From the NCBI RefSeq assembly GCF_000004075.3, contig NC_026658.2:22866075-22930074 (forward strand): DNA of 64,000 nucleotides, read 5' to 3'. The DNA is from Cucumis sativus. Its lineage: Eukaryota; Streptophyta; Magnoliopsida; Cucurbitales; Cucurbitaceae. Each line of letters starts with the position of its first letter. Within the stretch, counting starts at the first letter, position 1. Positions 10,251-60,281 of this stretch are shown here, piece after piece. Both the position numbers and the translations under genes were made by a program. A model generated the notes under the pieces. The model was not told the origin of the DNA. It was given only the letters and a program-made list of their open reading frames with translations, and did not search any database.

Positions 10251-10832
10251 ATGGCAAATCAATGGCTCAATATGTACAATCAAAACAACCTTTCAAACAC
10301 TCAACTCCCCTTTCATCTCTCCCATCACGATCACCTCAGTTCAAACAATAACTCCGATGTAGTTTCTGATTCTACCGTCGTCACTACCGCCGTCTCCTCC
10401 GCCAATACCCCACCAGCCTCATCATCCGGTCTGAACCCAGATGGAACCCGAGTTGCCAAGCCGGTCCGGAAGAGGTCCAGAGCCTCTAGACGGACCCCAA
10501 CTACTTTACTCAACACGGACGCCGCAAATTTCCGAGCTATGGTCCAGCAATTCACCGGCGGCCCCTCTAACGCTAATAATAACCTCCACAATTTTGCCAC
10601 ATTCGGCTTCCCCTGTAATTCCCAAACCCTTTTCGACCCGGCTTCCGCCGCCGCCTACCAGGTCCAAGATCCGGCGCAGCAGCAGTCGGTACTCCAATTC
10701 CAAAACCAGCCACCGCCGCCGCTTATGTTCTCGTTGAGTAATTCGGGAGGCGGTGATGCGTTTTATCAACAAGGTGGAGGATCGAGAAGTAACAACAACA
10801 ACAATAACATAAATTACACGGGGGGTTTTTGA
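10251..10832 (+). CDS. VQ-motif protein, VQ22/JAV1-like
   Basis: This is a single-exon protein of 193 aa, typical of VQ genes, which usually lack introns. The diagnostic motif FRAMVQQFTG spans residues 94-103 (consensus FxxxVQxhTG), preceded by a basic nuclear-localisation-like stretch PVRKRSRASRRTP at 71-83. The N terminus is Asn/Ser/His-rich, and the C terminus is Gln/Pro-rich and ends in an Asn repeat with GGF. VQ proteins are nuclear cofactors that bind WRKY factors through the VQ motif. The RKRSRASRRTPTTLLNTD block resembles Arabidopsis VQ22 (JAV1), a jasmonate-pathway repressor; that closer assignment is inference. The ATG follows directly on a TATA box and short leader. A decayed paralog lies 1.9 kb downstream, and G-boxes occur on both sides. 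Confidence 0.9.
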   Translation: MANQWLNMYNQNNLSNTQLPFHLSHHDHLSSNNNSDVVSDSTVVTTAVSSANTPPASSSGLNPDGTRVAKPVRKRSRASRRTPTTLLNTDAANFRAMVQQFTGGPSNANNNLHNFATFGFPCNSQTLFDPASAAAYQVQDPAQQQSVLQFQNQPPPPLMFSLSNSGGGDAFYQQGGGSRSNNNNNNINYTGGF

Positions 10833-26482: not shown

Positions 26483-28160
26483 GAATAGAAAGATTCAGGC
26501 TTTAGGTGCTACCACTTTTGTCGAGACAACAAATTTTGCGGATGCTGAAGCGTGACTTACTTTGATTGAAAAGTGTTTTAGAGTAATGAGATGTCTTGAG
26601 GACAGAAAAGTGGAACTTGAATTTTTTTCTCTTCAAAATAGGTCTGAAGATTGGTGGTGCATGATAGAAAGTAGACGGAAATCTATAGGTGATATAAGTT
26701 TGGATGAGTTTAAAAAGACATTCTTTGATAAGTTTTATCCACGCTCTTTTCGTGATGAAAAACAAAGTGAGTTCTTGAAGCTTAATGATTGTTGCTGAAT
26801 ATGAGAAGAAATATACAAAATTATCTAAGTACGCCACTAGTGTGATTGAGGATGAGATTGAAAGGTGCAAGCAATTTGAAGAGGGATTACGAGAGGAAAT
26901 TCGTACTCTTGTGACAGCTTGTGCAGATTGGGTTGATTTCTCAAAGTCAATGGAGGCAGCACTAAGAGTAGAGAAAAGTGTATATGAAAGAAAGCGTGAA
27001 AGAGAAGCTTCCAAGAATGTGTGTACAGTGTACATCAAACAGTCATCGAAACTGCTCAGGTAATGAAAAAAGTGGAAGATTTGTACTGGGGGTGCCCAGT
27101 AGAGGAAATTTTAAGTCTCAGTACAGTGGTTCATCTTTTTCTAAGTCTGGATCAGGTGGAGGGACTCAGAGACCGAGCTGTTCTAGTCATCCTATATATC
27201 CTACAAGAGCTTCTCATGTTGTTCAATCTGATAAGGTAGTGTCAAGGTCTAGCAAGAGGAGTGTATGTTATAACTATGGTCAACCAGGTCATTATCGTAG
27301 AGACTATCTACTTTTGATACCGGAGAACAATACCATTCAGAAAACTACTTCTCAGACAGGAAGTCAACAACCAAAAACCACAAGAACAAGGGGTGAAGGC
27401 TCTAGTGGGGTAAAACAAAAAGGATTGGTGGGATCTCGTCAGGAATGGAAGGTTTTTGCAATGACACAATAGGAGGCAGCAAATGCACCAAACATTGTGA
27501 CTGGTACGTTATCTATATTTTATAAACCTGCACATGTCTTGATGGATCTTGACGCAACACATTCTTTTGTTTCTATTATGTTTAGTGTTGGATTTGATAA
27601 AGAGCTAGAAAGTCTAACTAAGGAATTGTTGATAAGTACACCTGTAGGTGATAGTTTCATAGTCAATAGTGTGTACCGAGATTGCATGGTTCATATTGTT
27701 GGTAAAACATTAGTAGTGGATTTGATTCCCTTAGATGTTAAGGAGTTTGATGTTATCTTGGGAATGAATTTTCTATCTAGTCACTATGCCTCTATAATTT
27801 TTCATTAGAAAGAAGTTATTTTTAAACGTCCAAGAAAGAACAAGATTATTTTCTGCGGTGATAGAAAAATACTTTTCACCTGTGTGATCTATGCCTTAAA
27901 AGCCAGTAAATTGTTAGGAAAGGGTTGTACGACCTACCTAGCACATGTGATGGATACTGAAGTTAGTAAGTTGAAGCTTGAAGTTATTCAAGTGGTAAGA
28001 GAATTCCTAGATATTTTTCCTAAACAATTATCGGGACTACCACCCTATAGAGAGATTGAATTCTCAACTGTCTTGGTGCCTAGGATGACACCTATTTCAC
28101 AAGCTCCTTATAGAATGTCACCAATAGAATTGAGCGAGTTAAAATCACAGGCTATTTTTC
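26483..28160 (+). pseudogene. Ty3/gypsy gag-protease remnant, truncated at RT
   Basis: The gag core is recognisable from RCLEDRKVELEFFSLQ and DEFKKTFFDKFYPRSF (26,590-26,750), continuing after a frameshift as AEYEKKYTKLSKYATSVIED and ERCKQFEEGLREEIRTLV. The zinc knuckle at about 27,263-27,307 has lost two of its three cysteines (CYNYGQPGHYRRDY). The protease active site reads LMDLDATHSFVS, where the family has D-S-G, and is followed by EFDVILGMNFLSSHYASI. The coding sequence ends just after the start of reverse transcriptase (APYRMSPIELSELKSQ). At least two frameshifts and several stops (near 26,551, 27,471 and 27,808) make it dead. No LTRs were found, so only a piece of the element remains. 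Confidence 0.85.
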
Positions 28161-28884
28161 TTGTAGTGATATTATTTTTATGTTTTTCCAACAATAGTGA
28201 GCATAAAGATCAGATCGATCAAAATTATATGATGGAAATTAATGTCGATTTGAAGCATGTTTTGACAAATTCTAATGTATCTTAACCATAATGATTAATA
28301 CTTTACATATTTTAAAGTAGAGAGTCTAAGTTGTTATGCGCTAAAGTATAAAGACTAAATTGATACAAAATAAAATATGATACTTTCAAATAAAGAGAAA
28401 TAAACTAAATTATTTACAAATATAACAAAATCTTATTATCCTTCAACGATAGACAATGATAAAAATTAATTAACATTTATCAATGTCTACCATTGTCTAT
28501 CAACGATAAATAATACATTAATATTACTTTATTTATGAATATTCTCAATAATTTTGTCATTAAAAAAGTTACCCAAATATTACACATAAACTGGAATTAT
28601 TGTTGTAATCTTTCCAAAAAAAAAACAAAAAAAAAAAAAAAAGAAAAGAAAATTCCAAAAAAAAAACAAAAAAAAAGAAAAGAAAAGAGAAAAACATGAC
28701 TAGCTTAGGATTCTTCATCTAATTTTCCTATCACATGAAGTTTCTTTTACTTGTATATTTTGAAAAGAGTAATATTAATCATAACTATGTGGTATATGTT
28801 ATGTATTTGCCATTAAAAGCTATACATGTATGTATGTATATATATTATTTGTATGTATGTATGTATATATATTATACATATATA

Positions 28885-35214: not shown

Positions 35215-37200
35215 AATTATGGACGAACCATTTCAATCCAACCGACCTTTTCGATTTGAGGGAGCACACTTCAAAATGTGAAAACAAAAAATGCTACTTT
35301 TGCTCATGTTGAAGAAGGTTGCCCGCTTGTGCCATCGAGAAACCAACTATTCCAGAGACAAATGCAACTGAGGAACAAATCAAGGATCTATCTGCATGGG
35401 CAAAAACTGATTTTATATGTAAGAATTTAATTCTTAATGGGCTTACTGATGAGTTGTATGACTATTAGAGTACAATGTCTACTGTGATAGAAGTGTGGGA
35501 CGCGTTACACAAGAACTATGATACTAAGGAAGCAAGATAAAAAAAGTATGCAATGAGATGATACGTGCGATTCCAAATGACTGATGATAGATCTGTGGAG
35601 GCTCAATCGCATGAAATCCAAAAGATAACACATTAAATTATTAGCGAAGGTATGACACTAGACGATCAATTTCAAGTTGCGGTTATTATTGATAAATTGC
35701 CTCTTCTAGAAAGATTTCAAGAACGCTCTAAGGCACAAAACCAAGGAGTTCTCGCTAGAAAGTCTTATAACAAGACTAAGGATAGAGGAAGAGACGAGAA
35801 AACATGATCAAAGGGAGGAGGTGAACACGATACCCAGAAAGAAGCCTACTGCAGTCCTAAACCGGATCTAAAGCCGAAAGGAAAGATGAAACGTGGATCC
35901 AACAAACAGAACAACTCCCAGTCCGGAAGTATGGTACAAATTGTTTGTTATAATTGTAATAAGTTTGAACACTTAGGTAGAAAATGTAGAAATGAGAATC
36001 ATCCTGCTTCGCAAGCAAACCTAATAGAAGAAGATGCAGTAGCGCTATGATTTCTAAAGTTAATGTTATTGGGGGTCTGATGGTTGGTGGCTAGACACTG
36101 GTGCATCTTGCCATGTCTGTCATGACCTTAGTCTGTTTAGAAAATATAATGGGATTAAGGATAAGAATATCTTTCTAGAAGATCATCACACAACCAAATG
36201 TGGCTGGTGTTGGAGAAGTAGAACTGAAATTTATACATGACAAGATGCTTGTTCTGAAGGAAGTTTTGCGTACTCCTCAAATTCGAAAGAATTTGGTCTT
36301 TGAATATCTCCTCTACAAGGCTGGCTTCACACAAACCATAAGATTAGACTTGTTCACCTTAACAAAAAATAATGTATTTGTGGAAAAGAGTTATGCTATT
36401 GATGGCATGTTTAAGTTGAATTTGGAAATTAATAAGAATCTATCTTCTGCTTACATGTTGTCTAATTTTAATGTTTGACATACTAGACTCTGTCATGTTA
36501 ATAAAAGACTAATTAACAACATGAGCACATTAAATCTTATACCTAAATTATCTTTGCATGAATTTTAGAAATGTGCATGTTGTAGTCAAGCTAAGATAAC
36601 AAAAACCTCGCATAAGTTTGTAACTAGAGTAACAAAGCCTTTAGAATGAATCCGTTCTTACTTATGTGAATTTGATGACACATTGACTAGGAGCAGTAAA
36701 AGGTATGTAATAAACTTTATAGATGACTTTTCTGACTACACTTTTATTTACCTACTTAAAAATAAAGGTGATGCATTTGACATGTTCAAGATGTATGTAA
36801 CTGAAATAGAGAATTGATTTAACAAAAGAATTAAGAGACTTCATAGTGATAGAGTAACTGAATATGATTCAGTTTCCTTCAATGAGTTTTATAACTCAAA
36901 AAGAATAATACATTAATCAACTGCACCTTATTCTCCTGAAATGAATGGAAAAACAGAAAGTGAGGATAGAACTCTAATTGAGTTAGTAGTTGTTATCTTG
37001 CTTGAATCAAGAGTAGCACCATCTTGTTGGAGTGAAATATTTAAACCTGTTAATTATGTCCTTAATAGGATTCCTAAATCAAACACTAAAACTTCACCAT
37101 ATGAAATCCTTAAGAATAAAACACCTAACTTGTCTTATCTTAGAACTTGGGGTTGTCTAGTCTATGTTACAATACCTTATCTAAATATGGGATTGGAAAC
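35215..37200 (+). pseudogene. Ty1/copia gag-integrase remnant
   Basis: A UBN2/gag region is seen (KTDFICKNLILNGLTDELYD; EVWDALHKNYDTKEA; RFQMTDDRSVEAQSHEIQKI; DDQFQVAVIIDKLP). Next come a complete CCHC knuckle near 35,948 (CYNCNKFEHLGRKC), a protease active site (WWLDTGASCHVC, near 36,090), a GAG-pre-integrase segment and an integrase core (VINFIDDFSDYTFIYLL; RLHSDRVTEYDS; STAPYSPEMNGKTE; GCLVYV). Reverse transcriptase and RNase H are missing. Stops and frameshifts are frequent. The order protease-integrase before RT is what separates copia from gypsy. LTR boundaries were not identified, though 34,850-35,060 could be LTR or leader. Confidence 0.85.
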
Positions 37201-37204
37201 GATT

Positions 37205-38110
37205 CTCAATAGTGGCTTTACAACTTCTATATGTCAATGCCCATCAATTACACGGTCGACCTTATGGTTCAAGGTATGTTATTTCAATTTAATTTAAATC
37301 AACAACTTTTAATATGTAATACATTTAAAATCTAAAATATTAGTTGAACAATACAGATGGAGAGATTAATTTTGTGTGACTAGGTCGACTACACATGTTA
37401 GTCTCTCAATATAGGTATATGTTTGATCTTCTTCAACCTGATTAGGTACGTCGTGCTAAACTTGAATTTTAAGTTATATATTATTTGTTTCATACAATAT
37501 ATTGTGTTTCAGATTATCTGGGAGTCGTACAAAGTTGTCATAGATAATTTGCCACGTTTCTGTACAAACGGTCACAACATATGGCAGACAGTTAGTCATT
37601 TTCATATGTTTCTACATTGGTGAGTGACATCAACCTCACAGAACACTTAGATAGTTCGGTATTTAATAAGGTGTTCCATGTGGCTGTAATACTAAACCAT
37701 TTTTGCACGACATTGACCTAAGGACTAATGAATGGTCAGATAGAGTTGCTCATTTAGTGATGTGATAGCTAAATCGCACAAGGTTTATTGTTGCGAGACC
37801 TCCAATTAAGGCAATTTCTTATGGATGTAACTCCAAAATACATTCATTGGTACAAAAACATTAGCAGGCTTTATATCACCTGATCAGAAGCTACTATGGA
37901 TCATTTGGTACACATTTAAATATTGTATAATTATTTTAATATAAATTTAATTCCAATGTTTTCTAATTCATTTTAATATTTAATCCGAGATCGAACAATA
38001 ATAGACTTCAAGATGTTGCAGATGATCCACAACAGGTCCTAAATATACGCAATGATAATAAGGAGTACGTGGAGAACATTTACTATATGTACGATGTCCC
38101 TATTGTACCT
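37205..38110 (+). pseudogene. Plant mobile domain (PMD) remnant
   Basis: Pieces read VVIDNLPRFCTNGHNIWQTV (about 37,535-37,590) and DRVAHLVM...NRTRFIVARPPIKAISYG (37,742-37,825), then YKNISRLY-like and SRTIIDF segments. The spacing resembles the domain found in 'serine/threonine phosphatase 7 long form' and MULE-associated plant proteins. Several stops interrupt it. It abuts the copia remnant, whose reading ends at about 37,200, so one may have inserted into or replaced part of the other. Confidence 0.45.
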
Positions 38111-41868: not shown

Positions 41869-42175
41869 TTAAAATGAAGGCAGCAAAATAGATTGTTGGT
41901 TAAAAGTAAAATAATAAATATAGAATTGAAGGAAGAGAAATGATAAAATTTAGAATTTAGAATAAAAGAATGGGAAATAAAAAACTAAAAAAAAAAAAAA
42001 CATAGACTAAATTGTATCTAATTATTAGTCGGATAAGATTTAAGAAAAAAGAAAAAAGAAAAAAGAAAGGTTAAAATGAAGGCAAGAAATACATTGTTAG
42101 TTTAAAGTTAAATAGAGAGAAGTGAAGGAAGAGAAATGATAAATTTAAAATATAGAAAGAGTATATAAAAAAAAA
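41869..42175 (+). repeat. Diverged direct repeat upstream of the ZIP gene
   Basis: TTAAAATGAAGGCA(G)CAA, TTGTTGGTTAAAAGT and GAAGGAAGAGAAATGATAAA at 41,869-41,955 recur at 42,071-42,150, about 200 bp on, separated by A-rich DNA. Confidence 0.55.
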
Positions 42176-42247: not shown

Positions 42248-42257
42248 GTGTCGACAT
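42248..42257. promoter_or_regulatory. Zinc-deficiency response element 1
   Basis: GTGTCGACAT is a perfect match to RTGTCGACAY, the binding site of bZIP19/bZIP23-type zinc-sensing transcription factors. It lies 268-277 bp upstream of the ZIP start codon. Confidence 0.75.
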
Positions 42258-42320
42258 TTGAAGTTGACTTCAACCAAAAATTTCAAGTCTTTCCTCACTT
42301 CCCCCCATTCTTTTCTTTTC

Positions 42321-42330
42321 ATGTCGACAT
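42321..42330. promoter_or_regulatory. Zinc-deficiency response element 2
   Basis: ATGTCGACAT is a second perfect RTGTCGACAY match, 73 bp from the first and about 195 bp upstream of the start codon. Confidence 0.75.
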
Positions 42331-42432
42331 TTTTTCGCCATTCTTTTCTTTACTTCTTAATTCATTTCATTATTTCTTAACTCTAACATTTAATATTCCT
42401 TTTTTCTTTCCTTCTTCTCTTCTTTCACTTCC

Positions 42433-42439
42433 TATAAAT
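42433..42439 (+). promoter_or_regulatory. TATA box of the ZIP gene
   Basis: TATAAAT in an otherwise CT-rich stretch, 86 bp before the chosen ATG and downstream of both zinc-response elements, so the 5' UTR would be about 55 nt. Confidence 0.55.
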
Positions 42440-42524: not shown

Positions 42525-44825
42525 ATGCCAATGCCAATGCCCCATTTCAACCCTCCTTCTCTTCTTTCTCTCTTCTTCTTATTATTTCTTCTTCTCATTC
42601 CTTCCGTCCTCGCTGCACCCGATTGCCAGTGTCCCGAGGATTCCGAAGATGACGGTAAACGAGATGAAACTTTAGCTCTCAAATACAAGGTCGTTGCCAT
42701 AGCTACCATTCTTGTCGCTGGAATTATTGGAGTGGTGATTCCTTTGTTAGGGAAGCTGATTCCGGCCTTAAGTCCGGAGAAGGATATTTTCTTTATCATT
42801 AAAGCTTTTGCTGCTGGAGTTATATTAGCTACTGGATTTATTCATGTTCTTCCCGATGCTTATGGGAATCTTACCTCCTCCAAATTGAACGAGCATCCGT
42901 GGGGGAAGTTTCCGTTCACTGGTTTAGTGGCTATGGTTGCGGCTATTGGTACTTTGATGGTGGATGCGGGTGCGAGTTCTTATTATACTCGGATTCATCT
43001 TAATAAAGCTCAGCCGGAGTTGAATGGTGATGATGAGATGCGCGGCGGCGGCTGTGGCGCTCATGATGGTCATGTTCATGTTCATACTCATGGCACTCAT
43101 GGTCATGCTCATGGCTCAGCCGATGTGGGTGGCTCATCGACGGAGATTCTCCGCCATCGTGTCATTTCTCAGGTAACTTTTCGAAACTGATGTCTCATTC
43201 TTTTAAAACTTCATTATTATTTATTTCCTCCTTTACTTCTTACTAATTCTGATTGGTTTTTCGCTCTTTTGTTCTTCTTCATCACAATTCCACACCTGTC
43301 TTTCAATTTAAAATTTCATTTCAATCCATCTTAAATTCAATCCTTACTATTAGTTTGTTTACCTCAAACCTTTTGTTGATTTTCTCTTATCAAATTTTAT
43401 GATAGTTTGTGCACAAACTTTCAACCTTGGAAGTATATACACATTTTTCTTAAATAAATGACAAATTTCAAGTAAACTTGTTATGAGGTGGGTCCAACAA
43501 TAATGAAAATATCTATTTTGATTTACGTGGATGGATGGGACTTTTCTATAACAATAATAAAAATGAAGATTTTTGAAAACATCCTAATGAAAGTAAAAAA
43601 GAAAAAGAAAAAAAAGGTTTAAACAATATTATAAAAAGAAAAATAGAAAATGTTGAATTGAAGTAAGTGGTGGATTATTAAATGATAATTAGAATTGAAA
43701 TGAAAAGGATGGAGGAGGTTTAATTAAATAAAGATAGAAATAGTTTGGTTAATGTGTGTTGATGTGTTTATGGGTATTTAGGTATTGGAGCTTGGGATAG
43801 TGGTACATTCGGTAATTATAGGAATAGGTTTGGGTGTCTCTGAATCTCCAGAAACAATAAGACCTCTTGTCGCCGCCATCACTTTTCATCAGTTATTTGA
43901 AGGGATGGGCCTTGGAGGTTGCATTGCTCAGGTACTACTTCTCTTCCAACTCTCCCCTTTTCCCTTCTCTCTTTCTTTATTTTCTAACTTTCCAATGTTT
44001 TCTACTTACATTTCTTTTTCTTTTAATAATTTGTAACCCATAAACTGGATGGGGATTGTATGATATGATGGGTTTGTCCATTTCTAATTCAATTTCTGGG
44101 TCCTTCCTCTTTTCTCTGCATTCATTGACTTTGTTGCCCACAAAAGTTGACCTATTTATTTTCAAATATTTCTGCTCAAACTTCAACCAAAAAGTTTCTC
44201 CTCCTTTTCAAATTTTAAAAAATAAGAAGAAGAACAAAAAAAGGCAATCAATCATACCATACTTATCTATGAAATTATAGCATATATTAAATTGAGTTGC
44301 CTTTTTCGGTTTGAACTTCCTTTTTCTACCTCGTATTTCACACATAATTATTATTTTTTATATTCTTCAAAAAGGAAGTTACTTACTATTTAAACACATC
44401 TTTTTACTTCTTCTCACTGTTGTCTATAATTTGCATGTTTTCTATAATTTGAGTCTTACAATACAGATAAATATTTTAAGGTAGTTTATTAAATTTAAAT
44501 GTTATTTTGAAATGTGCAGGCAAAGTTCAAAAACAGGGCAACAATACTAATGGGGCTTTTCTTCTGTTTGACAACGCCAATTGGTATAGCAATAGGAATT
44601 GCAGTAACCAAAACTTATGATGAAGACAGCCCAAAAGCACTTATTGTTGAAGGAATTTTAAATGCAGCATCTTCTGGTATCTTAATCTATATGGCTCTTG
44701 TTGATCTTCTTGCTGCGGATTTCATGAACCCTAGAATGCAAAGCAATGGAAAGCTTCAACTTCTTGCCAATGTTTCCCTTATTCTTGGAGCTGCCTTGAT
44801 GTCTTTACTTGCCATTTGGGCATAG
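42525..44825 (+). CDS. ZIP-family zinc/metal transporter
   Basis: Three exons (42,525-43,172; 43,782-43,931; 44,520-44,825) encode 367 aa, a normal length for plant ZIPs. Residues 12-30 form a signal peptide ending near VLAAPDCQC. Helices follow at about 55-80, 88-110 and 130-148. The cytosolic variable loop between helices 3 and 4 carries a His-rich metal-binding run, [18 protein letters not shown] (180-197). Helix 4 has the signature [12 protein letters not shown] (His225) and helix 5 [10 protein letters not shown] (His252, Glu256), the metal-path residues. The C terminus ends in the short extracellular LLAIWA typical of the family. ZIPs bring Zn2+ (some also Fe, Mn, Cu) into the cytosol across the plasma membrane. 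With two zinc-deficiency elements in the promoter, a zinc-uptake member of the ZIP1/3/4/5 type is likely; exact orthology is not settled. Two further in-frame ATGs follow the first within 12 nt. Confidence 0.95.
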
Positions 44826-48483: not shown

Positions 48484-49875
48484 TCAACAAGTATTAATTT
48501 TATGAAACACATGATCGATAAAACGATTAAGATCATTGAAAGAAGATCCATCCTCCATTGTTGCCTTCTTACTTTCCTCACTCTTAACCATCACCCCCTT
48601 CTTCATCTCCTCTGAACCTTCCATCAACTTTCGTATCCCCGCCTCAATCTTATCCGCCCTCAACTCCCCCTCCGCCGCCCCCACCATACTATAATCCAAG
48701 GACACCTCCACCCCCACTCCCAACTCCACCGCCATGTGAAACGCATTCAACTGCTGCTCCGCATACATCGGCCACGTCGCCACTGCCACACCGTTCCACA
48801 AACTCTCCAGCACTGAATTCCACCCGCAATGCGACACAAACCCTCCCGTCGCCGGATGTTCCAATATTTCCATCTGCGGCGCCCACCCCATCACTTTTCC
48901 CATTCCGCTCGTCCGATCCACGAATCCTTCCGGCAGAACACTCTCCGGTGGTACCTGCCGTATGGACCAGATGAATCGGACTCCACTTCGCTCTAAGGCA
49001 TCTGCAATCTCTTTGGTTTGAGATTCATTGAAGATTCCCATTGATCCGAAACAGAGGAGCACCACCGACGACGGTGGCTGCTCGTCTAACCACTTCAAAA
49101 TCTCATCCCGTTCGATTTGGGGATTTTTTTCCTTCACATTCAAAATAGGTCCAACGGCGTACACCGGAGGGAGATTCTGATTGGCGAACCAGTTAATCGC
49201 ACCGGATTCGAGCTCGGAAAATGTGTTTACTAAAAACCCACTTGCTTCTCTGAACTTGCGAGTGAGATTGTGCGCCCATTCAATCGTTTCCTTATCGTAA
49301 AAAATGGTGGAAATCACTTTCCTCGGAATCGGATTTTTGAAACCCGGGAGGGCAAACTCTGTTACAGAGTTGAGCAATTGGTCCATGTCGTGATTGAATT
49401 CATAGTCGTAGAGTTCTTGAAGATGGAAGAGAAGGGCAAGGAAGGAAGCGCTGGAAGTGTAGAAGACGAAAGTGGGAACAGAAAATTGTTTGGCTACATC
49501 CAGCATTGGAATGCAGAACATGTCGACGACGAAGCCAGCGAGTGTAGGGGAATCCGGCGCGGCGATGAGATTGGCGACGGCGTCGGCGACATTTTGTTTC
49601 TGGGATTCGACGAGGGGTTTTAAGATGGTGGTTTTATTAGTGTTGCCGGGGATGGGTTGCTCCGGGAGAGTGAAGAATCGGAGGCGATGGTTGGCATAGG
49701 AGGAACAGAGAGATTGAATTTGATCGGCAGATCTGGTGGGGAAAGGGATTTTAATGATGAAAATAGTGATAGAGAGAAAAGGGTGTCGAGTTACGAGAAG
49801 GTGGGCGAGTTGGAGGGCGGAGGTCAGGTGGCCGATGATCGGGGTGGGGATGAAGATGAGCTCCAGTTTCTTCAT
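48484..49875 (-). CDS. UDP-glycosyltransferase A (UGT71-like)
   Basis: Single exon, 463 aa, full length for a family 1 plant glycosyltransferase. The N-terminal acceptor domain has the catalytic His16 (TPIIGHLTSA) and its partner Asp118 (GFVVDMFC). The PSPG box that binds the UDP-sugar runs W331 to Q374, containing HCGWNSVLESLW and ending YAEQ; the last Gln favours UDP-glucose. The enzyme is cytosolic and transfers glucose to small acceptors. Within the family the sequence is most like UGT71, whose members act on phenolics such as flavonoids and phloretin or on abscisic acid; the acceptor here cannot be read from sequence. The ATG follows a TATAAAAAG box on the minus strand at about 49,903-49,912. 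It is the most downstream member of the cluster and lacks the long loop before the PSPG box that members B, C and F have (IRQVPPESVLPEGF). Confidence 0.93.
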   Translation of the reverse strand: MKKLELIFIPTPIIGHLTSALQLAHLLVTRHPFLSITIFIIKIPFPTRSADQIQSLCSSYANHRLRFFTLPEQPIPGNTNKTTILKPLVESQKQNVADAVANLIAAPDSPTLAGFVVDMFCIPMLDVAKQFSVPTFVFYTSSASFLALLFHLQELYDYEFNHDMDQLLNSVTEFALPGFKNPIPRKVISTIFYDKETIEWAHNLTRKFREASGFLVNTFSELESGAINWFANQNLPPVYAVGPILNVKEKNPQIERDEILKWLDEQPPSSVVLLCFGSMGIFNESQTKEIADALERSGVRFIWSIRQVPPESVLPEGFVDRTSGMGKVMGWAPQMEILEHPATGGFVSHCGWNSVLESLWNGVAVATWPMYAEQQLNAFHMAVELGVGVEVSLDYSMVGAAEGELRADKIEAGIRKLMEGSEEMKKGVMVKSEESKKATMEDGSSFNDLNRFIDHVFHKINTC

Positions 49876-49902
49876 TTTGGGGGAAGAAGATGGGTTGAAT
49901 TA

Positions 49903-49917
49903 ATGGCTTTTTATAAT
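49903..49917 (-). promoter_or_regulatory. TATA box of UGT A
   Basis: On the minus strand TTAATTATAAAAAGC lies about 30-40 bp before the ATG, implying a very short leader. Confidence 0.4.
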
Positions 49918-50613
49918 TAAAAAAAAAAGGTCCTTATTATTATTTTATTATTTAAAATGGTTTAAGTTTATATTTTGATTGATGATATGTTTATAATTGA
50001 AGGTTAAGGGTAAGGGATGGACAGCATAGAAATTTGTAAGCGTTAGGAGAAAATGATGAAAGGTGAGATGGACAAAAAGTCATGTCATCAAGAATTCGTA
50101 CCTTCTAGGAAAGTTTAAAATGTTTTGTTCAACTGAAATCCTCCTCAACCTGTCAAATCAGCCCATACCTCTATTCTTTATCTAAATTATCTCTTCCTGT
50201 TTTTACATCTTTATTCCCAAATTCAAAATGTAAATCAATTGTATATATTGAGCACTAGGTGAAGTATACAGAGGACAAATTCAGAAATCATTCTTAAAAC
50301 CTAATTTAATGGGATGTAGATGATGTCATTGCTTTGCTGTTTTTTTTATTTATAGAGAACTAGATAAGTATTGTTAATTTCGTATTTTTAGAAATCAGTA
50401 TTTTGTGATGTTTGAGATATTTGGGTAATACTTACGTGCTCCACTGCTTCTCTTTAGTTTTAAATTTGTGCCAATTATTATTATACTCAGATTTAACCTT
50501 TTATTTATCCAACTAAAAGTAATGTCCCCTATAAATAAGTATATATACACCTTATAACCAAAAAAAGAAAAACTTTTCAAACTTATATGTTTTATAGGAT
50601 TATACTTATTTGA
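49918..50613. other. Spacer between UGT A and UGT B
   Basis: About 0.7 kb of promoter of UGT A and 3' flank of UGT B. No gene is seen. Confidence 0.5.
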
Positions 50614-52008
50614 TTATTTTAATTTGGCTTTGGCTATCACGACTTCAATGAAACGATTAAGAGCAGTAAAGGAAGAGCCATTCTCCATTACACTTTTTCT
50701 ACTCTCTTCGCTCTTCATCTTCACCATTTTCCTAATCTCCCCATCCCCCTTCATCACTTCCTTAATCCCACTCTCTATCTTCTCCGCCCTCACTATGCCC
50801 TGCCCGGTTTCCGTTGATATCTCCACCGCCAATCCCAACTCCACTCCCATCTCTACCGCATTCAACCCCTGCTCTGCGTACATCGCCCATGCCCCAATCG
50901 GCACTCCAAACCACAGGCTCTCCAGAATCGAATTCCATCCGCAGTGCGACACAAACCCTCCGGTCGCCGGATGCTCTAGAATCTTCATCTGTGGCGCCCA
51001 CCCAATCACTCTCCCCATCCCCGCTGTCCGATCCAAAAACCCCTCTGGAACAACTTCTTTAATGTAATCCGTGTTCTGTATTTCCCCTTCCGATGATGGC
51101 TCCCGTAACGACCACACAAATCGGTACCCACTTCGCTCCAAAGCTTCTGCGATTTCCTTCACTTGATCTCGACCGAAGCTTCCCCTGCTTCCAAAGCAGA
51201 GGAATACCACCGATTGGAACGGTTGTTCATCTAGCCATTTCAGGATCTCATAACCTTCACTGGAGCTGTTCTTATTCAGATTCAGAATCGGCCCAACCGC
51301 ATACACGGGCGGAAACGTGGAGGAGCTCGAAGAATCGGCAAACGCTTCTATAACATTCGATTCCAATTCAGAGAAAGTGTTGATCAAGATGCCGTTGCTT
51401 TCTCCGAATCTTCTAACGCTTTCGTGTATCCATTTAGCGTTTTCGTCGAAATAAGCGGTGGGAATTGCTTTGGCTGTAACAGGGTTAACGAAACCGGGGA
51501 TGGGGATTTGAACATCTGGGTTTAGGGATTGATGGGTACGATCGTAGAGGTGTTGAAGATGGAGAGTGAGAGAGAGATTTGCAGCGCTAGAAGTGGAGAA
51601 GAGATAAGAAGGAACCCCCAATTGGTTGGCTACATCGATCATGGGGGTGCAGAACATATCGAGAACGAAGCCGGCGAGGACAGTGGGGGAATCGGGGGAG
51701 TTGGAAATAAGGTCGGCGACGGCGTGAAAAACATTCTGTTTTTGGGTTTGGATTGTGGTTTTGATTAGAGAGATGAACTGGGGGTGATGGGGAAGAGGAG
51801 GGATTTGGGGGAGGATGATGATTGGGATTGTGGAAGAGGGGAGAAGGGAGTGGAGCTTGGTGGAGGTAATGGTATGCGATGGTGGTGGGATGATGAAGAA
51901 GGTGACGGAGAGGCGGTGGTTGCGGCGGATGAGGAGGTCGGCGAGATGGAGAGTGGCGGAGAGATGGCCGATGTCTGGCCAGGCAATGAAAATCAACTCC
52001 ATCTTCAT
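50614..52008 (-). CDS. UDP-glycosyltransferase B (UGT71-like)
   Basis: Single exon of 464 aa from the ATG at 52,008. An upstream in-frame ATG at 52,077 would add 23 residues, but the alignment of MKMELIF with MKKLELIF of the neighbouring member argues for the later start. Catalytic His15 sits in WPDIGHLSATL and Asp117 in GFVLDMFC. The PSPG box spans W337-Q380 with HCGWNSILESLW and ending MYAEQ. Member B differs from its neighbours in the N-terminal sugar-acceptor loop (a Pro/Ser/Thr-rich IIPPPSHTITSTKLHS segment) and has GVPIGAWAMYAEQ, so acceptor preference may have shifted. The direction is the same as all other cluster members. Family and UDP-glucose preference are well supported; the substrate is unknown. 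Confidence 0.92.
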   Translation of the reverse strand: MKMELIFIAWPDIGHLSATLHLADLLIRRNHRLSVTFFIIPPPSHTITSTKLHSLLPSSTIPIIILPQIPPLPHHPQFISLIKTTIQTQKQNVFHAVADLISNSPDSPTVLAGFVLDMFCTPMIDVANQLGVPSYLFSTSSAANLSLTLHLQHLYDRTHQSLNPDVQIPIPGFVNPVTAKAIPTAYFDENAKWIHESVRRFGESNGILINTFSELESNVIEAFADSSSSSTFPPVYAVGPILNLNKNSSSEGYEILKWLDEQPFQSVVFLCFGSRGSFGRDQVKEIAEALERSGYRFVWSLREPSSEGEIQNTDYIKEVVPEGFLDRTAGMGRVIGWAPQMKILEHPATGGFVSHCGWNSILESLWFGVPIGAWAMYAEQGLNAVEMGVELGLAVEISTETGQGIVRAEKIESGIKEVMKGDGEIRKMVKMKSEESRKSVMENGSSFTALNRFIEVVIAKAKLK

Positions 52009-53149
52009 TTTTTTTTTTAGTTGAGGTGTTTGAGTGAATCTCAATGCTTTGAATTTTTGTAGCATTATTAGATTCATGTTTTCTTCTTTGTTATAGAAGA
52101 AAAGTAATAGAAGAATTGATTTGTGGAAAATGAAATTTTGAGGTTAACCAACGACTTTTCTTAGGTTCTCTAACTCAATAGAGTTGAGAACAAAAGATTT
52201 CTCGCAACATTTGGGATATTTCAATCCTATAATTAAATAAATATTTATGTTCAATTAAATCATTTATACAAAATAAAGTTAATTAATTATTTAACTAACT
52301 CCTAAACATCAACTAAATTAGGGTTATTATTATTATATTAATTGATTTTTTATTTACCTTTCAACTAAACATAATTATATTACTTACTAAAAACAATTAA
52401 AATATCGATATTTAACTATATTAATTTATATTAAATAGTTAAGATATCATAAAATATTAATGAGAAAGAAACTAGTTGGGATTTATTAGGTATAAAAAAT
52501 GTATTTATATTTAATAATTAGTTAGAATTAACAATAATGAATCATTTTGTATGAATCCTACACTTTTGCACAGTATTAAAAGATTATGCGAAATGAATTT
52601 TAAAGTTTCCTGAATAATATTTGTCCATACTTCTAACATGTGAAATTTTGTAAATCAAAAGTGAAAATAAGATGTCTTGAAACAAACATGAACACTCCAT
52701 TTGTGAAGCAAGTTCTTTGAATACTAAGATTTTCATATGTTAATTTTCAAATTCCAAAACAAAAAAAACATGTAACAATTACTAAAAGGAGACTATAGAA
52801 TTTAAATTAATACAACTTAAATTAATTTTTTTTGTGGTTAGTTAAAAAAGTTATACAAATATGGTAGGATATAAAAGAGAAATATAGTGGAGGTTTGGAG
52901 GTTTGGAGGCTTGGACTCAACGCAAATTTACTCAAATTGGATTGGGTTATAAAGAAAGAAACAGAGAAATGAGAAAATAGGTAGAGAAGTAAGCAGAGAG
53001 AGATAAGACTGAGAATTTGAGAAATACAGAACTTGGGGTTTATTCCAACAAAAAGAAAAGCTTTACCACTAAATATTCTGTTTATTTCAAAAATCTCTCC
53101 TTCACTGTTACAGACATTTTTTCATGAATTATATGAAACCAAAATGGCA
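52009..53149. other. Spacer between UGT B and UGT C
   Basis: AT-rich flank containing the promoter of UGT B and the 3' end of UGT C. No gene is seen. Confidence 0.5.
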
Positions 53150-54619
53150 TTAGTAGTTGCCCTCTTGTAAGTTAGTCAAAGCATCATCAATGAAATGACG
53201 TAATGAATTGAAGGAGGATCCACCTTCCATCATACTTTTTCGACTTTCTTCACCTTTTACTTTGATTTTCTTCCTGATCTCATTACCAGAATCGCCCATC
53301 AATTTTCTGATCCCGCTTTCTATCTCTTCTGCACTCACTATTCTCGACCTTCCTATATGAAAATCCTTCACGTAGTCTAATGTGAGCTCCACTGCCAATC
53401 CTAATTCCACCACCATTTCAAATGCGTTAAATTGTTGTTCGGCATACAATGGCCATGTTGCCATTGGTACACCATGCCATACACTCTCCAACGTTGAATT
53501 CCAACCACAATGTGATATGAATCCTCCAGTGGCAGGATGGGACAATATTTCTATTTGTGGTGCCCACCCGATGACCCTTCCAATATCGGCTGTTCGGTTG
53601 AGAAATCCCTCAGGTAGGACGTCGTTGATGTTAGCATAGTTGCTTGGCTCTTCAAACTTACCCTTTGGTGGGGGCTGTCGAAGGGACCATAAGAAGCGAA
53701 CCTCACTTCGCTCCAGTGCTCGAGCAATCTCTAGCACTTGATCCTCGTCAAAGCTTCCTTTGCTACCAAAGCATAGGAAAACCACTGATGCTGGAGGTTG
53801 ATCATCTAGCCACTTTAGTATATCTGCACCATTTAGAGCATTGTTGCTTTGTGTAACACCAATACTCTTCAACTGCAAAATGGGTCCAACAGTATACACC
53901 TTTGGGATTTTCGAAGAGCCATTTGACATCCATTTGACTATTTGTGGTTCCATCTCTACAAATGTATTGATCAAAATACCTTTGACTTCTGATCTAAATC
54001 TTTTAGTATTATCATGAAACCAAGCAGCCATGTCTTTATCAAATAAGAAGGGGGGGATGGCTTTATTAGGAATTGGATTGATAAAACTTGGCAGAGCTAA
54101 CTCAACATTTGAATTTTGCAACTGTTCTGCTGTGCTATTGTTTTGATTGTAAAGCTCTTGGAGATGAAAGCTAAAATCAAGAAAGCCAGCATTGGATGTG
54201 TAAAACAAATAACAAGGAACCTTAAATTCATTAGCCACATTTATCATACTGGTGCAAAACATATCAATGACAAATCCGACAAGACGGTTCGAGTCATGAA
54301 TTAAGTTGGTCACAATTTCCCTCACATGGGGCTTGTGGCTTTCAAGGAATGCTTGCAGCATAAGGGGGGGAGGTTCACTACTTTGGTTTGGGAAGGGAAG
54401 TTCAGGAAGAACAATAAAGCGTATAGATTTACCCTCGAAAGACGCTGAAAGTGACTGAATACGTTCCGTCGTCGTTTTGATGTCATTGGGAAGCTTGATG
54501 GCGAGCACAGTCACAGAGAGACGGTCATCTCGGCTAACAAGAACATTTGCCAGCTCGACCGTGGATGCAAGATGGCCGATCCCCGGCCCAGGTATGAAAA
54601 CTAACTCAAACTTGTTCAT
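53150..54619 (-). CDS. UDP-glycosyltransferase C (UGT71-like)
   Basis: Single exon, 489 aa, starting at the ATG at 54,619 (MNKFELVFIP); the frame can be extended three codons only by using a TTG. Catalytic His16 is in [10 protein letters not shown] and Asp119 in GFVIDMFC. The PSPG box is W352-Q395, with WAPQIEILSHPATGG, HCGWNSTLESVWHG and ending LYAEQ. The long loop SLRQPPPKGKFEEPSNYAN precedes it, as in members E and F, so C, E and F form one subgroup and A and B another. Expected role: cytosolic glucosylation of a small lipophilic acceptor. The 5' leader holds a duplicated GATAAGAC element. Confidence 0.93.
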   Translation of the reverse strand: MNKFELVFIPGPGIGHLASTVELANVLVSRDDRLSVTVLAIKLPNDIKTTTERIQSLSASFEGKSIRFIVLPELPFPNQSSEPPPLMLQAFLESHKPHVREIVTNLIHDSNRLVGFVIDMFCTSMINVANEFKVPCYLFYTSNAGFLDFSFHLQELYNQNNSTAEQLQNSNVELALPSFINPIPNKAIPPFLFDKDMAAWFHDNTKRFRSEVKGILINTFVEMEPQIVKWMSNGSSKIPKVYTVGPILQLKSIGVTQSNNALNGADILKWLDDQPPASVVFLCFGSKGSFDEDQVLEIARALERSEVRFLWSLRQPPPKGKFEEPSNYANINDVLPEGFLNRTADIGRVIGWAPQIEILSHPATGGFISHCGWNSTLESVWHGVPMATWPLYAEQQFNAFEMVVELGLAVELTLDYVKDFHIGRSRIVSAEEIESGIRKLMGDSGNEIRKKIKVKGEESRKSMMEGGSSFNSLRHFIDDALTNLQEGNY

Positions 54620-54640
54620 TTGATTCAAAAGATAATTAGC

Positions 54641-54682
54641 GTCTTATCTTTTGGATCTTCAAGCCTGTCTTATCTTTTGGAT
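54641..54682 (-). repeat. Duplicated 16-mer in the UGT C leader
   Basis: GTCTTATCTTTTGGAT occurs at 54,641-54,656 and 54,667-54,682, 26 bp apart, just upstream of the start codon. On the coding strand each holds AAGATAAGAC, a GATA/I-box-like core. Confidence 0.6.
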
Positions 54683-55756
54683 TGGAGTTGGTTAACCACA
54701 TATATAACAATTTTTCTTGCTTGGAGAAGAAGACAAAATGAATCTTTGTAAAGGAAATGGACAAATGAAGACTACAAGTAGAATTGGCAAACCATATATA
54801 AGACACATATTAAAGTCTAAATACGTCATGGCTTTGCTGTTCAAAGAAAGATAATAAATCAACTTGCAGTTTTGTTGTAGTTTTGCACTGAGAAAAAGAA
54901 GCAGACAAGCTAAGAAAAAAAGGCAGGTTTTTTCCCCTTTGAAACTAATAAACAATGAATGTTGAATCTTTGATAAAGAATAATATTTGATTTGAAAACG
55001 TGGGATGTCTCATTTACTAATATTATTCATTCCCCAAGTGGGAATCTTTTTCTTGTTTTTGTTTGTTTGTTTAAGTGTTATGTCTTTGATTTATCTTAGT
55101 TTGACTATGAATAATCTTTTGTTTTCTTCGTCAAAAATTTACTGTTTGAAGTGTGATCAAAGTCCTCTATTAACCGGATAAGGAAAAGATCATGAGACCT
55201 TGTTAAATTTTAGGCCGAAATAAACCTTTGCTTGGGATCTAAAAACATTCAACTATATACAATAAATTCAAGTCATAAACCACTCTCTATTACCTCTTAT
55301 CATTTATTATTCTTGACCTTTCCTCACAAAAATCCTTTCAACAAACTTGACAACACATAGGGCTGTCATCAACTTAGGCTTTTAATTCAACTAGATTCGA
55401 CAACATGTTTAGATATTATATTAAAGCAGGTTGCTTCAGCCTCGTTAACTTAAGTTTTTAGGTTCAGTTGGTGATTTAAGATGGTATCAAATCAAGTGGT
55501 CTAGGGAGGTTCTTTGTTCAAGCCTCACAACATTATTTCTTCCCCAACTTAATATTGATTTTTACTTGTAGAATCATTCTTTATATTTCAAAGTCTACAA
55601 GTAAAGGAGAGTGCTAGATATTATATTAAATGCAATGTTCTTTTGTTGACAAGTGAGTAGGAATGTTAGATATAATATTAAACTTGTCTTTACTCACTCA
55701 ATTAAGTTTATAGGTTAGATTGGTGGTGATTTAAGACAGAGAAATGAAAATTTTTC
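54683..55756. other. Promoter side of UGT C and spacer
   Basis: No gene is seen. At about 55,470-55,550 a phrase GGTTCAGTTGGTGA ... GAGGTTCTTTGTTCAAGCCTC has tRNA-like (SINE) flavour. Confidence 0.4.
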
Positions 55757-56210
55757 ATGCACTAAGCATATGAAACTATAAAATGGTCCAATGAGATGAA
55801 GGAAGATTCACCCTCCATTACACTTTTCCTACTTCACTTCAGTTTTGACTTGTACTTTCTTATCTATCTCTTCCATATATTGATCCAAATACCTTTGATT
55901 TCTTATCTAAATCTTTTGAGATTATCATAAAGCCAAATAGCAGTCTTATAATCAAACAAAGAGTGGGACGATTTTGTGCTAGGTAATCGGATTGACAAAA
56001 CCAGACATAAATAACTCAGTTTCTGAGTTCTGCAACTGTTCCACCAACTCCTTACTATAATACTAATTGTAAAGCTCAAAAGCATAAGCAAGAGAGCCAA
56101 TAATAATAGAAGTGTAAAACACATCATAAGGAACCTCAAATTCTTTAGCCACATATCTATCATGGTGCGGTGCAGAACATATATACAACAAGTCCAACCA
56201 CTCTGGGAGG
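55757..56210 (-). pseudogene. UGT D: internally deleted UGT pseudogene
   Basis: The minus strand begins with a piece of the acceptor domain (LVGLVVYMFCTAP around the Asp motif, then VFYTS-like and ELYN-like parts in other frames, PITKHKIVPLF-like, and WLYDNLKRFR). It then jumps, just after 'EIKGI', to the extreme C terminus (VQVKTEVK and SSFISLDHF). The whole middle, including the PSPG sugar-binding box, is absent, so about half the gene is deleted. Several frameshifts are also present. It lies between C and E, as a dead tandem copy. Confidence 0.8.
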
Positions 56211-56319
56211 TAGATAACTAACTAAAATGAAGTTATTTATACTAATATAAAAACATATTGGAGTTAGAGAGAGCTCGGCCCTTGAGCCTATGGTAAATTC
56301 GCTTTTGAGACTTCTCGCT

Positions 56320-57777
56320 TTACTCTTTTCCATTGGATGAGTTGACTAAAACATCATTTATGAAATGAACCAATGAGATGTAGGATGATCCACCCTCCAT
56401 TACAGCTTTCCGAACTTCTTCGCTTTCGGCTTTGACTTGCTTTCGAATCTCATCCCCGTCGTCCATCACTTTTCTTATTCCGCTCTCTATCTCTTCTGCA
56501 GTTACTAGTTTTGACCTTTCTAAGCGATAATCCTTTTGATAATCTAATGTTATCTCCACTGCTAATCCCAACTCTACCACCATTTGAAAGGCGTTTAGTT
56601 GTTGCTCGGCATACATTGGCCATGCCACCATTGGCACGCCATACCATAAGCTCTCCAACGTAGAGTTCCAACCACAATGCGAAACGAACCCTCCAATGCT
56701 TGGGTGGGCTAATATCTCAACTTGTGGTGCCCAACCAATTATCTTTCCAACATTCGCTGTTGGGTCAAGAAATCTCTCTGGCAAGACGTCTTTGATATCA
56801 GCATAATCACTTGGTGCTACCCATTTTCCCTTGGGTGGGGGTTGCCGAAGTGACCATAAGAAGTGAACCCCACTTCGCTCTAGCCCTTGTGCAATCTCCT
56901 TCACTTGCTCCTCATCGAAGCTTCCCATACTCCCAAAGCACAAGAAGATCACTGATGCTTGAGGCTGATCATCGAGCCATTTAAGTATATTTACTCGGTT
57001 GACAGTGTTTTCTAAGTTCAAAATAGGTCCAACACAATACAAGGAAGGAACTTGTGAGGATGGGCCACTTGACATCATATTAACCACATGAGATTCTATC
57101 TCTGCACAAGTATTGATCAAAATACCTTTGATTTCTGATCTAAATTTCCTAGTATTTTCATACAACCAAACAGCCATGTCGTTATAAACAAATATACTAG
57201 GAATGACTTTACCCGGAATCGGATTGACAAAACTTGGTATAGTAAGTGATTCAGATTCTGAGTTCTTTAACTGTTCGACTACCCGGTTGCTATTATTCTG
57301 ATCATAAAGCTCTTGAAGGTGAAAATTGAGAGCAAGAAAGGCAGCACTAGAAGTGTAAAACAAATAACAAGGCACCTTAAATTCTTTAGCAACGTCTACC
57401 ATTGTCATACAGAACATGTCAAGGACAAATCCAACTAGTTGGGGAAAGTCAGGACTAGTTTGAGAGTTGACTTGATTGGCCATAGCTTCTCTAACGTGGG
57501 GCTTATAGATTTCTATAAGGAGCTGTGGCATACCATTTTGACATTCTTGTGGAAGGGGCAGTTCAGGAAGAAGGATCAAGTGTATGGATTTTCCAACAAA
57601 AGATGCAGAAAGTTGTTGGATATGATCCATCGATTTGTTGTCGTAGACAGTTGCATGACGAGCAGTGTGACAGTGAGACGGTGATCTCGAGTGACAAGAA
57701 TATTGGCCATCTCAGCAGTAGATGCAAGATGACCTATTCCAGGTGCTGGTATGAAAACCCAGCTCAAACTTCTTCAT
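56320..57777 (-). pseudogene. UGT E: near-complete UGT with two N-terminal frameshifts
   Basis: From 57,630 downward 436 aa are open and well conserved, including GFVLDMFC, and a normal PSPG box (WAPQVEILAHPSIGG, HCGWNSTLESLWYG, MYAEQ). The true start region lies above: ATG at 57,777 gives MKKFEL, then an extra G near 57,763 shifts the frame and leads to a stop. The family's [20 protein letters not shown], with the catalytic His, continues in a second frame to about 57,648. There a missing base returns it to the first frame. Translation from ATG 57,630 would lack the catalytic His and the first 50 residues. The promoter looks intact. Either this is a young pseudogene or both indels are assembly errors. 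Confidence 0.75.
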
Positions 57778-57857
57778 TTAGTATTGGTACAAAGATTAGA
57801 ACTCTAAAGGTGAAAATGGGAGTTTTTGATGATTGAAGAAGAAGAAGAGACTCCGTT

Positions 57858-57869
57858 CTTTATATAAAG
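57858..57869 (-). promoter_or_regulatory. TATA box of UGT E
   Basis: CTTTATATAAAG, about 85 bp upstream of the ATG at 57,777 on the minus strand, followed by a CT-rich leader. The core promoter of this frameshifted copy thus appears intact. Confidence 0.5.
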
Positions 57870-58811
57870 AAAGCTTAGTATGAAGATCCACAAAATGAAT
57901 GGCTACAAGAAAAGGAAACCACATACATTACGATAAGGTTTAGTATTAAAAAAAAAGAATTACAATGAGAGGAGGTATGCGGATAAAACCTTCGAGGAGG
58001 AGGTGCATGTCATTTGAAGATGAATGCATTAGACATAAAATTCAAGGTTAGATATAGTATATAACCATTAACTTTCACTTTTGGGTCAATACGTTTGTAA
58101 AAATTTAAACAGAAGCATCAAATAGGTTAAGTACCTCTTAGTTACAAGGTTTGAAAGCTAAGATAGACATAATCGATAGTTTAGATACCTACTATATCCT
58201 TTTAAAAGCAAGTTTAGAGACTTGGACACCAAATTTATTAGATACTTATTTAAGTTTTGGAAGACAGGAAGTTTATGAAGTATTTTTAGGAAGTAGTTCA
58301 GCCTCTTTTATAGTTGTTGATCATGCTATTATTTAATCTCCTCTCGCCTCTGCAATGTTCAACGATCGCCCTTTCTCCATTTTTCGCTCTCGCTTTCTGG
58401 TAACCACATCCAATGTAGTGATTCCACTCCATTCACCCCACTGCAACATTCTAATAGCCAGTGACGACACTACTGCCACTGGAAAAAAAATGGAGAAATT
58501 GGGAAAAGGAAGAAGAAAAGATAAAATTAATGGTAAATTTGTAAACTTGGTTGATGATGATGTAAGGAAAGGGGCATGGCAAATTCTCGAGTTTCAAAAA
58601 GTGAGGCAACGACCATTATGTGCATTATTAACTATCTTCAAAACAAGAGGGTTTTGACCAGAAACAAACTGAGTTTAGCTCTAAGACGAAGACAAACATC
58701 ACAAACCAAAACCATCCAAGATGCCACTCTCATCACATTTAGAAGTGGTTGCTTTGGCAACAAAATGAAATGGTCTACGTGCTTTTAGGCTCATGAATGA
58801 AACTACGTCAT
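57870..58811. other. Spacer between UGT E and UGT F
   Basis: Open frames on the + strand (58,355-58,657 and 58,576-58,788) show no recognisable domain and are probably chance. No gene is claimed. Confidence 0.45.
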
Positions 58812-60281
58812 TTAGTTTCCTCCTCCTGCCGAATTGGCCAAAACATCATCTATAAATTTTCCCAACGAGACAAAGGAGGAACCACCTTCCATTACACTTT
58901 TCCTACTTTCTTCACTTTTTGCTTTCACTTTTTTCCTTACCTCATTACTTTCTTCTCCCATTAATTTCTTGATCCCACTCTTTATCTCTTCAGCACTCAC
59001 TAATCTTGGCTTGTCTTCACCAAAAGTTATTCGATAGTCTAACGTGACCTCCACTGCTAATCCCAATTCTACTACCATTTCAAAGGCATTGAATTGTTGC
59101 TCGGCATGCATCGGCCATGTCGCAATAAGCACGCCATGCCACACACTTTCTAGTACCGAGTTCCAACCACAATGTGATATGAATCCGCCAATGGCTGGGT
59201 GGGCCAATATCTCCACTTGTGATGTCCATCCAATGACTCTCCCAATACTCATTGTTCGATCGAGAAATCCCTCTGGTAGGAAGTTTCTGATGTCATTGTA
59301 GTTTTTCGGCGCTTCGAACTTACCCTTCGGTGGAGGTTGTCGAAGGGACCATATGAAACGAACCCCACTTTCCTCCAATGCATTCGCAATCTCTGCCACT
59401 TGAGCCTCATCAAAGCTTACCATAGTCCCAAAGCACACAAGGACCACTGATGATGGAGGTTGATCATCAAGCCACTTCATTATTATATCTGCATTGTTTT
59501 GAGCCTCACTTGATCCTGCCACTCCTGCATTTTTCAAGTGCAAAACAGGTCCAACAAAATATAAAGGTGGGAGGACTTGAGAGTAGGACTTCGCCACATG
59601 TGATTCCATCTCCTCAAATGTATTGATAAGAATCCCTTTGATTTCCAATCTAAACCTTTTAATATGGTTATGAAACCAAACAGCTTTGTCCTTGTTAGAA
59701 AAGAGGGTAGGAATGAGTTTACTAGGAATAGGATTAACAAAATTTGGCAAAGTTAACTCAACATTATCTGAGTTCAGCAACTGTTCCACCACTTCATTGC
59801 TACCATTCTCTTCATAAAGCTCTTGAAGATAAAGACTAAAAGCAAGAAAACTAGCACTGCAAGTATAAAACACATAACAAGGAACCCCAAATTCATTACC
59901 CACATCGATCATGGTTGTACAAAACATGTCGATGACTAACCCGACCAGCCGAGGCGAGTCGATACTTGTCGCTGCCGAGGCAGTAAGGTTGGATACAACC
60001 TCTCTAACATAAGGCTTGTAGCTTTCAACCAACACAATGAAGTCTTTTTTACTTTCTTCCGGAAGGGGCGGTTCTGGAAGGACGTTGAATTGTATATTTT
60101 TTCCTGCGAAAGATGTAGAAAGTGACTCAATACATTCAGCAACTTTGACATCATAGGGAAGCTTCATGGCAAGCAATGTGACAGAGAGACGATGATCTCG
60201 AGTGACAAGAACATTGGCCATTTCAACGGTGGATGCAAGGTGACCAATTCCGGGGGCAGGTATGAAAATGAGCTCAAACAT
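58812..60281 (-). CDS. UDP-glycosyltransferase F (UGT71-like, altered PSPG box)
   Basis: Single exon, 489 aa. Catalytic His14 is in [11 protein letters not shown] and Asp118 in LVIDMFC. The PSPG box W352-Q395 keeps HCGWNSVLESVWHG and the final Glu-Gln but begins WTSQVEIL where all its neighbours have WAPQ. It also has GVLIATW for GVPMATW and MHAEQ for MYAEQ. Alanine and proline at positions 2 and 3 of the box line the uracil pocket, so nucleotide-sugar binding may be weakened or changed. The rest is full length and uninterrupted, like C. It is the most upstream uninterrupted member. It may be a working enzyme with changed donor affinity or a gene beginning to decay. Confidence 0.9.
   Translation of the reverse strand: MFELIFIPAPGIGHLASTVEMANVLVTRDHRLSVTLLAMKLPYDVKVAECIESLSTSFAGKNIQFNVLPEPPLPEESKKDFIVLVESYKPYVREVVSNLTASAATSIDSPRLVGLVIDMFCTTMIDVGNEFGVPCYVFYTCSASFLAFSLYLQELYEENGSNEVVEQLLNSDNVELTLPNFVNPIPSKLIPTLFSNKDKAVWFHNHIKRFRLEIKGILINTFEEMESHVAKSYSQVLPPLYFVGPVLHLKNAGVAGSSEAQNNADIIMKWLDDQPPSSVVLVCFGTMVSFDEAQVAEIANALEESGVRFIWSLRQPPPKGKFEAPKNYNDIRNFLPEGFLDRTMSIGRVIGWTSQVEILAHPAIGGFISHCGWNSVLESVWHGVLIATWPMHAEQQFNAFEMVVELGLAVEVTLDYRITFGEDKPRLVSAEEIKSGIKKLMGEESNEVRKKVKAKSEESRKSVMEGGSSFVSLGKFIDDVLANSAGGGN

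Follow-up and report, generated by a model that had tools for sequence, protein, structure and literature searches.

Two exact copies of the zinc-deficiency response element (ZDRE, RTGTCGACAY) sit in the promoter of a ZIP transporter gene in the window, the 64-kb stretch of DNA analysed here (G000:C4:22866075-22930074 of a 226.6-Mb assembly in 88 contigs), and very probably control the gene downstream of them as a zinc-deficiency switch of the bZIP19/23 type. This kind of control is already well described; what is added is a genome-wide view of the spacing of such pairs, by which the bZIP19/23-ZDRE zinc switch, itself a known mechanism, is extended to this plant genome with whole-genome support. 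Likely parts of the regulon can be named, which is of use for work on zinc nutrition: three ZIP genes, of which two have pairs and the third a single distant site, together with one NAS gene and two F-bZIP-like regulators.

The ZIP gene and its upstream sites

The sites and the gene are arranged as follows, in window coordinates:

42248..42257, no strand assigned: distal ZDRE GTGTCGACAT, exact word match
42321..42330, no strand assigned: proximal ZDRE ATGTCGACAT, exact word match
42433..42439, plus strand: TATA-box-like word TATAAAT, 92 bp before the ATG, a sequence match only
42525..43172, plus strand: ZIP exon 1, donor GTAACT, with the first helices and the His-rich loop
43782..43931, plus strand: ZIP exon 2, acceptor TTTAG, donor GTACTA, joined in frame, with segments of 10 and 11 residues
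44520..44825, plus strand: ZIP exon 3 to the stop codon, acceptor TGCAG

The three exons, whose borders are GT/AG, join in frame to encode 367 amino acids, a model built from the DNA letters alone. The predicted protein matches the Pfam family Zip (PF02535) over residues 53-364 with an E value of 1.9e-80 (271 bits against a cut-off of 35.1, profile positions 2-323 of 323), and exon 1 taken singly scores 171.4 bits with NCBIfam TIGR00820, under the whole-protein cut-off of 231.15. Exon 1 begins with a hydrophobic stretch that by eye looks like a signal peptide, and a His-rich loop of 18 residues precedes conserved helix segments that bear histidine, as in the ZIP family; the segments encoded by exon 2 are presumably the metal-site helices. 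The full-length Pfam match and the presence of both features uphold the first-pass annotation, which had called a ZIP transporter gene with a His-rich loop and helix motifs. From its family membership the product is probably a zinc importer, and we take its length and three-exon form to suggest the ZIP1/3/5/12 side of the family. A search for solved relatives found no PDB chain with an E value of 0.001 or below, and no relative was confirmed in the viral and prokaryote contigs.

Both ZDREs match RTGTCGACAY without a mismatch. The distal one starts 277 bp and the proximal one 204 bp before the ATG at 42525, and their starts are 73 bp apart, just as had been claimed in describing two exact elements at this distance within 280 bp of the start codon. 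The proximal word is a perfect palindrome over its full length, and the distal word is the reverse complement of ATGTCGACAC. The distal site ends 175 bp and the proximal site 102 bp before TATAAAT, which, if it is the TATA box, would place both ZDREs upstream of the start of transcription. A second TATA-like word, TATATAA, begins at 42162, upstream of both sites, and either the nearer TATAAAT or the distal TATATAA may be the box in use.

The arrangement is like that of AtZIP4/NcZNT1 in five Brassicaceae species (A. thaliana, Noccaea caerulescens, A. halleri, A. lyrata and Cochlearia pyrenaica), for which Table 3 of PMC4773103 gives two exact ZDREs 82-128 bp apart, near the start and upstream of a predicted TATA box. 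The words themselves are the same two 10-mers, symmetric ATGTCGACAT and asymmetric ATGTCGACAC or its complement (PMC4773103). Unlike in those promoters, the asymmetric word is here distal and reversed, the spacing is 73 bp instead of 82-128 bp, and the proximal ZDRE lies 102 bp from the TATA-like word, against about 27-49 bp in the published set (PMC4773103). Helical phasing of the pair was considered and set aside: 73 bp correspond to 6.95 turns and the published pairs to 12.19, 7.81, 11.33, 10.1 and 11.33 turns, and since these share no fixed phase, the value found here means little.

Several repeats lie around the sites. An exact 14-nt pyrimidine-rich repeat flanks the proximal ZDRE (42305-42318 and 42338-42351), and diverged direct repeats are found upstream of the promoter (41907-41950 and 42103-42146, with a further repeat at 41944). 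The idea that the ZDREs were copied by local duplication was rejected because neither site is included in the repeats at 41907, 41944 and 42103 or in the 14-nt repeats at 42305 and 42338. No divergent gene that might share the ZDREs was seen close upstream when stop-to-stop frames of at least 55 amino acids were inspected by eye from window position 28 kb up to the sites, an inspection that a gene with small exons could escape.

Frequency of the sites in the window and the genome

The two sites are the only exact matches to RTGTCGACAY in the 64-kb window. Dinucleotide shuffles (n=100) yielded a mean of 0.06 matches and never two (0/100), and Markov estimates for two sites in 500 bp range from about 2e-8 to 3e-6 (orders 0-3, window or local composition), figures that bear out the earlier assertion that a chance pair is very unlikely; from the density in the genome, about 0.0008 matches are expected per 500 bp. 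When 96 palindromic words of the same form (ZDRE included) were compared, only the ZDRE had two copies at most 280 bp apart anywhere in the window, and all 96 words together gave eight matches, two of them being the ZDREs. Eleven other palindromes made from a permuted half-site had no match in the window. With up to two mismatches allowed, the window showed no enrichment (42 matches versus 46.9 expected), so that the signal is confined to the two exact sites.

Across the 226.6 Mb of the genome, RTGTCGACAY occurs 376 times and a reversed-word control 287 times; taken singly, the word is frequent and only slightly in excess of the control. Exact pairs numbered two at gaps of 0-60 bp (control 0), three at 61-120 bp (control 1), none at 121-180 bp (control 0) and one at 181-240 bp (control 0), which makes six against one over gaps of 0-240 bp, while about 0.16 pairs up to 250 bp and about 0.04 at gaps of 61-120 bp are expected from density (0.075 by the same arithmetic for the 121-bp range). 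All three pairs of the 61-120 bp class lie at genes of two families: the ZIP promoter of the window, the promoter of a second ZIP gene (L054, contig C2) and a NAS gene (L061, contig C1). The remaining three pairs, at L062 (C3:20113008), L063 (C5:11572192) and L064 (C6:7810849), have gaps of 18, 26 and 236 bp, respectively, and translations of at least 70 amino acids in about 1.5 kb on each side contained, by eye, no ZIP or NAS frame. In this genome, pairs at the 61-120 bp spacing are thus confined to ZIP and NAS genes. Since all three of these pairs were known before the gap classes were chosen, the class limits are post hoc, and the absence of further pairs from the class is the only fresh result there, on a basis of three loci in one genome. 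It is conceivable, though we hold it doubtful, that the functional unit is the pair, in the sense that two exact ZDREs roughly 70-110 bp apart specifically mark zinc-deficiency target genes. Should this hold in general, much of a plant's primary zinc-deficiency regulon would be definable from sequence alone by a scan that takes spacing into account, and the spacing would point to cooperation of two bZIP dimers.

Zip matches in the genome fell into 17 stretches. We count these as nine genes, of which one, on C5, stays below the cut-off of the family. Starts were modelled for six, namely the window's gene, L054, L058, L053, L055 and L056; the weak or distant members L057, L059 and L060 were left out of the count with their starts unmodelled, and the stretches fetched for them contain no site. 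Within 2 kb of the ATG, exact sites number two in the window's gene, two in L054, one in L058 and none in L053, L055 and L056, the last three having no exact site in about 3 kb upstream. Upstream sites are thus present in two of the five other modelled ZIP genes, and the five sites observed at the six genes compare with 0.02 expected (about 0.03 for nine genes). The L054 sites lie at -722 and -636, with no TATAAA or TATATA word listed between them and the ATG. The closest ZIP paralogue found, L058 (G000:C7:11923751), encodes a protein 60% identical to the window's. Its only exact ZDRE stands at -1229, and within 1 kb no word matches even with one mismatch allowed; the two genes may thus differ by gain or loss of the close pair. 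The other four proteins are 44-52% identical to the window's over aligned positions (L055 being partial). The upper value belongs to L054, which has a long His-rich loop and which we take to be nearer to the ZIP4/9/IRT3 group.

The NAS gene L061 is on the minus strand of its contig, and its first exon encodes nicotianamine synthase (Pfam NAS, 4.7e-63). Its pair is placed as follows:

L061:4146-4251 (G000:C1:24044145-24044250), minus-strand gene: NAS ZDRE pair, exact words

One exact ZDRE, GTGTCGACATGG, overlaps the start codon. The second begins 88 bp downstream of it and falls within the coding region, in codons for N-V-D-T; with both sites at the ATG or within the coding sequence, this is not an upstream promoter pair, and the choice of codons for N-V-D-T could have yielded the second site by chance. 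In Arabidopsis NAS2 and NAS4, too, the ZDRE is described as including the ATG (PMC6349776), so that this position of a NAS ZDRE may be conserved across plant families. A genome scan with RTGTCGACATGG, which misses NAS genes that have another base after the ATG, gave 19 matches versus nine for the reversed control; of the 19, the L061 match is the sole one located at any of the six NAS stretches.

The proposed switch and its alternatives

A search of the genome with the bZIP_2 profile returned at least 29 stretches, and all 29 loci were scanned for 30-residue windows with at least nine Cys plus His. Such a window occurs in seven of them (L024, L025, L031, L035, L037, L043 and L044). L024 and L025 are the two best bZIP_2 matches among the at least 29, and their Cys/His-rich stretches (HACTHAHTCNPPGPDYSHTHTCFHVHTK and HTCTHTHTCNPPGPDYSHTHTCFHVHTK, respectively) immediately precede the basic region, and one open frame holds both the bZIP domain and the motif; of the other five, four have the Cys/His window on the strand opposite the bZIP match. 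In our view the stretch of L024 and L025 resembles the zinc-sensor motif of bZIP19/23, and these two genes are candidate F-bZIP regulators of the ZDRE sites. A Cys/His-rich motif is what senses zinc in bZIP19/23 (PMC9643250).

Published work describes bZIP19/23 as binding ZDREs and, when zinc is low, activating ZIP and NAS genes (PMC6349776, PMC9643250). Like the bZIP19/23-regulated genes AtZIP1/3/4/5/9/10/12 and IRT3, the gene of the window is a ZIP gene with upstream ZDREs, in a genome with F-bZIP-like genes. In a survey of 48 ZIP4/9/IRT3 orthologues from 24 land-plant species, including Cucumis melo, most promoters have ZDREs and these mostly number two; seven of the 48 are without a ZDRE, for a further three data were lacking, and the element is absent from 15 ZIP2/11 promoters (PMC5476651). 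The altered form RTGTAGACAY is described as non-binding (PMC5476651). The group covered by that survey is the one to which L054, 52% identical to the window's gene, looks nearer. Barley ZIP genes induced by low zinc carry ZDREs, with the exception of HvZIP13 (PMC5656896). Probes carrying the ZDRE in two or three copies were shifted by AtbZIP19, as were several wheat ZDRE probes, though not that of TaZIP6, and one wheat bZIP rescued the mutant yet did not bind in vitro (PMC5656842). Among the matches listed in our literature search, no title concerned the ZDREs of a cucurbit ZIP promoter, with Cucumis melo among the species of PMC5476651.

By analogy with these systems, the switch would work as follows. 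As cellular zinc falls, F-group bZIPs related to bZIP19/23 would lose zinc from their Cys/His-rich sensor motif, and their dimers would then act on both palindromes, raising transcription from the TATA box that follows after about 100 bp; the additional transporter would restore cytosolic zinc and turn the switch off. We infer binding, the response to zinc and the need for two sites from publications on Arabidopsis, Noccaea, wheat, barley and Medicago. The claim in the first-pass annotation that paired elements of this kind are the known bZIP19/23 switch gains weight from the exact published element, from its place at a ZIP gene, from the location of the 61-120 bp pairs (two ZIP genes, one NAS gene) and from the two bZIP genes with a Cys/His-rich stretch, with the functional step presumed from analogy.

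The two palindromic 10-mers might have come to lie upstream of a ZIP gene by chance and without function. The genome counts lend this some credit, in that 376 copies against 287 of the reversed word mean that most copies need no function, half of the six exact pairs with gaps of 0-240 bp are at no recognised target, and the reversed word also yields one pair. Against this stand the shuffles, none of which in 100 had two matches, the local probability of about 2e-8 to 3e-6, and the location of all three genome-wide pairs at gaps of 61-120 bp at ZIP or NAS genes, and we regard chance as highly improbable. It is also unlikely that the words are F-bZIP sites of which one would suffice, or that other factors mainly drive the gene and the ZDREs modify its expression only slightly. 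In AtZIP4 and NcZNT1 reporters, activity dropped on deletion into the first ZDRE and sank to background once the second was removed, and no other relevant element appeared (PMC4773103), whereas tobacco NtZIP4A and NtZIP4B respond to low zinc with one ZDRE named for each (PMC6335357), and in MtZIP1, which also responds to zinc deficiency, no ZDRE was detected (PMC9279927). The same holds for OsZIP4 (PMC5476651). MtZIP1 and OsZIP4 indicate that the element is dispensable for a response, and its presence does not prove its use.

The palindromes could, finally, serve a different DNA-binding protein or mediate repression, a role described for bZIP23 at a variant motif in the LPCAT1 5'UTR. A ZDRE-like variant has indeed been reported as repressive (PMC9643250, PMC6349776); the LPCAT1 motif is, however, a variant placed in the 5'UTR (PMC6349776), whereas the two sites here match exactly and precede the nearer TATA-like word, which leaves this use of the sites extremely improbable.

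Other features of the window

Among the frames inspected by eye from window position 28 kb up to the ZDREs, only transposon-like pieces were seen, at some distance upstream of the sites. Broken retrotransposon-like frames were noted by eye at 26978-28285 and 35808-37297; two frames tested within the former had no Pfam match, and the frame 36917-37297 in the latter scored 23.3 bits with Pfam SH3_retrovirus, below the cut-off of 27. A frame on the plus strand at 10251-10832 encodes a VQ-motif protein (Pfam VQ, 7.4e-11). Five UDP-glycosyltransferase frames (Pfam UDPGT) are clustered on the minus strand at 48484-60281, in DNA richer in G+C than most of the window, and one of them, 56320-57630, is by eye without the N-terminal part present in its neighbours. 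Between two of these frames, GTGACGACAC at 58461-58470 fits the wider form RTGWCGACAY, a match that may be due to chance.
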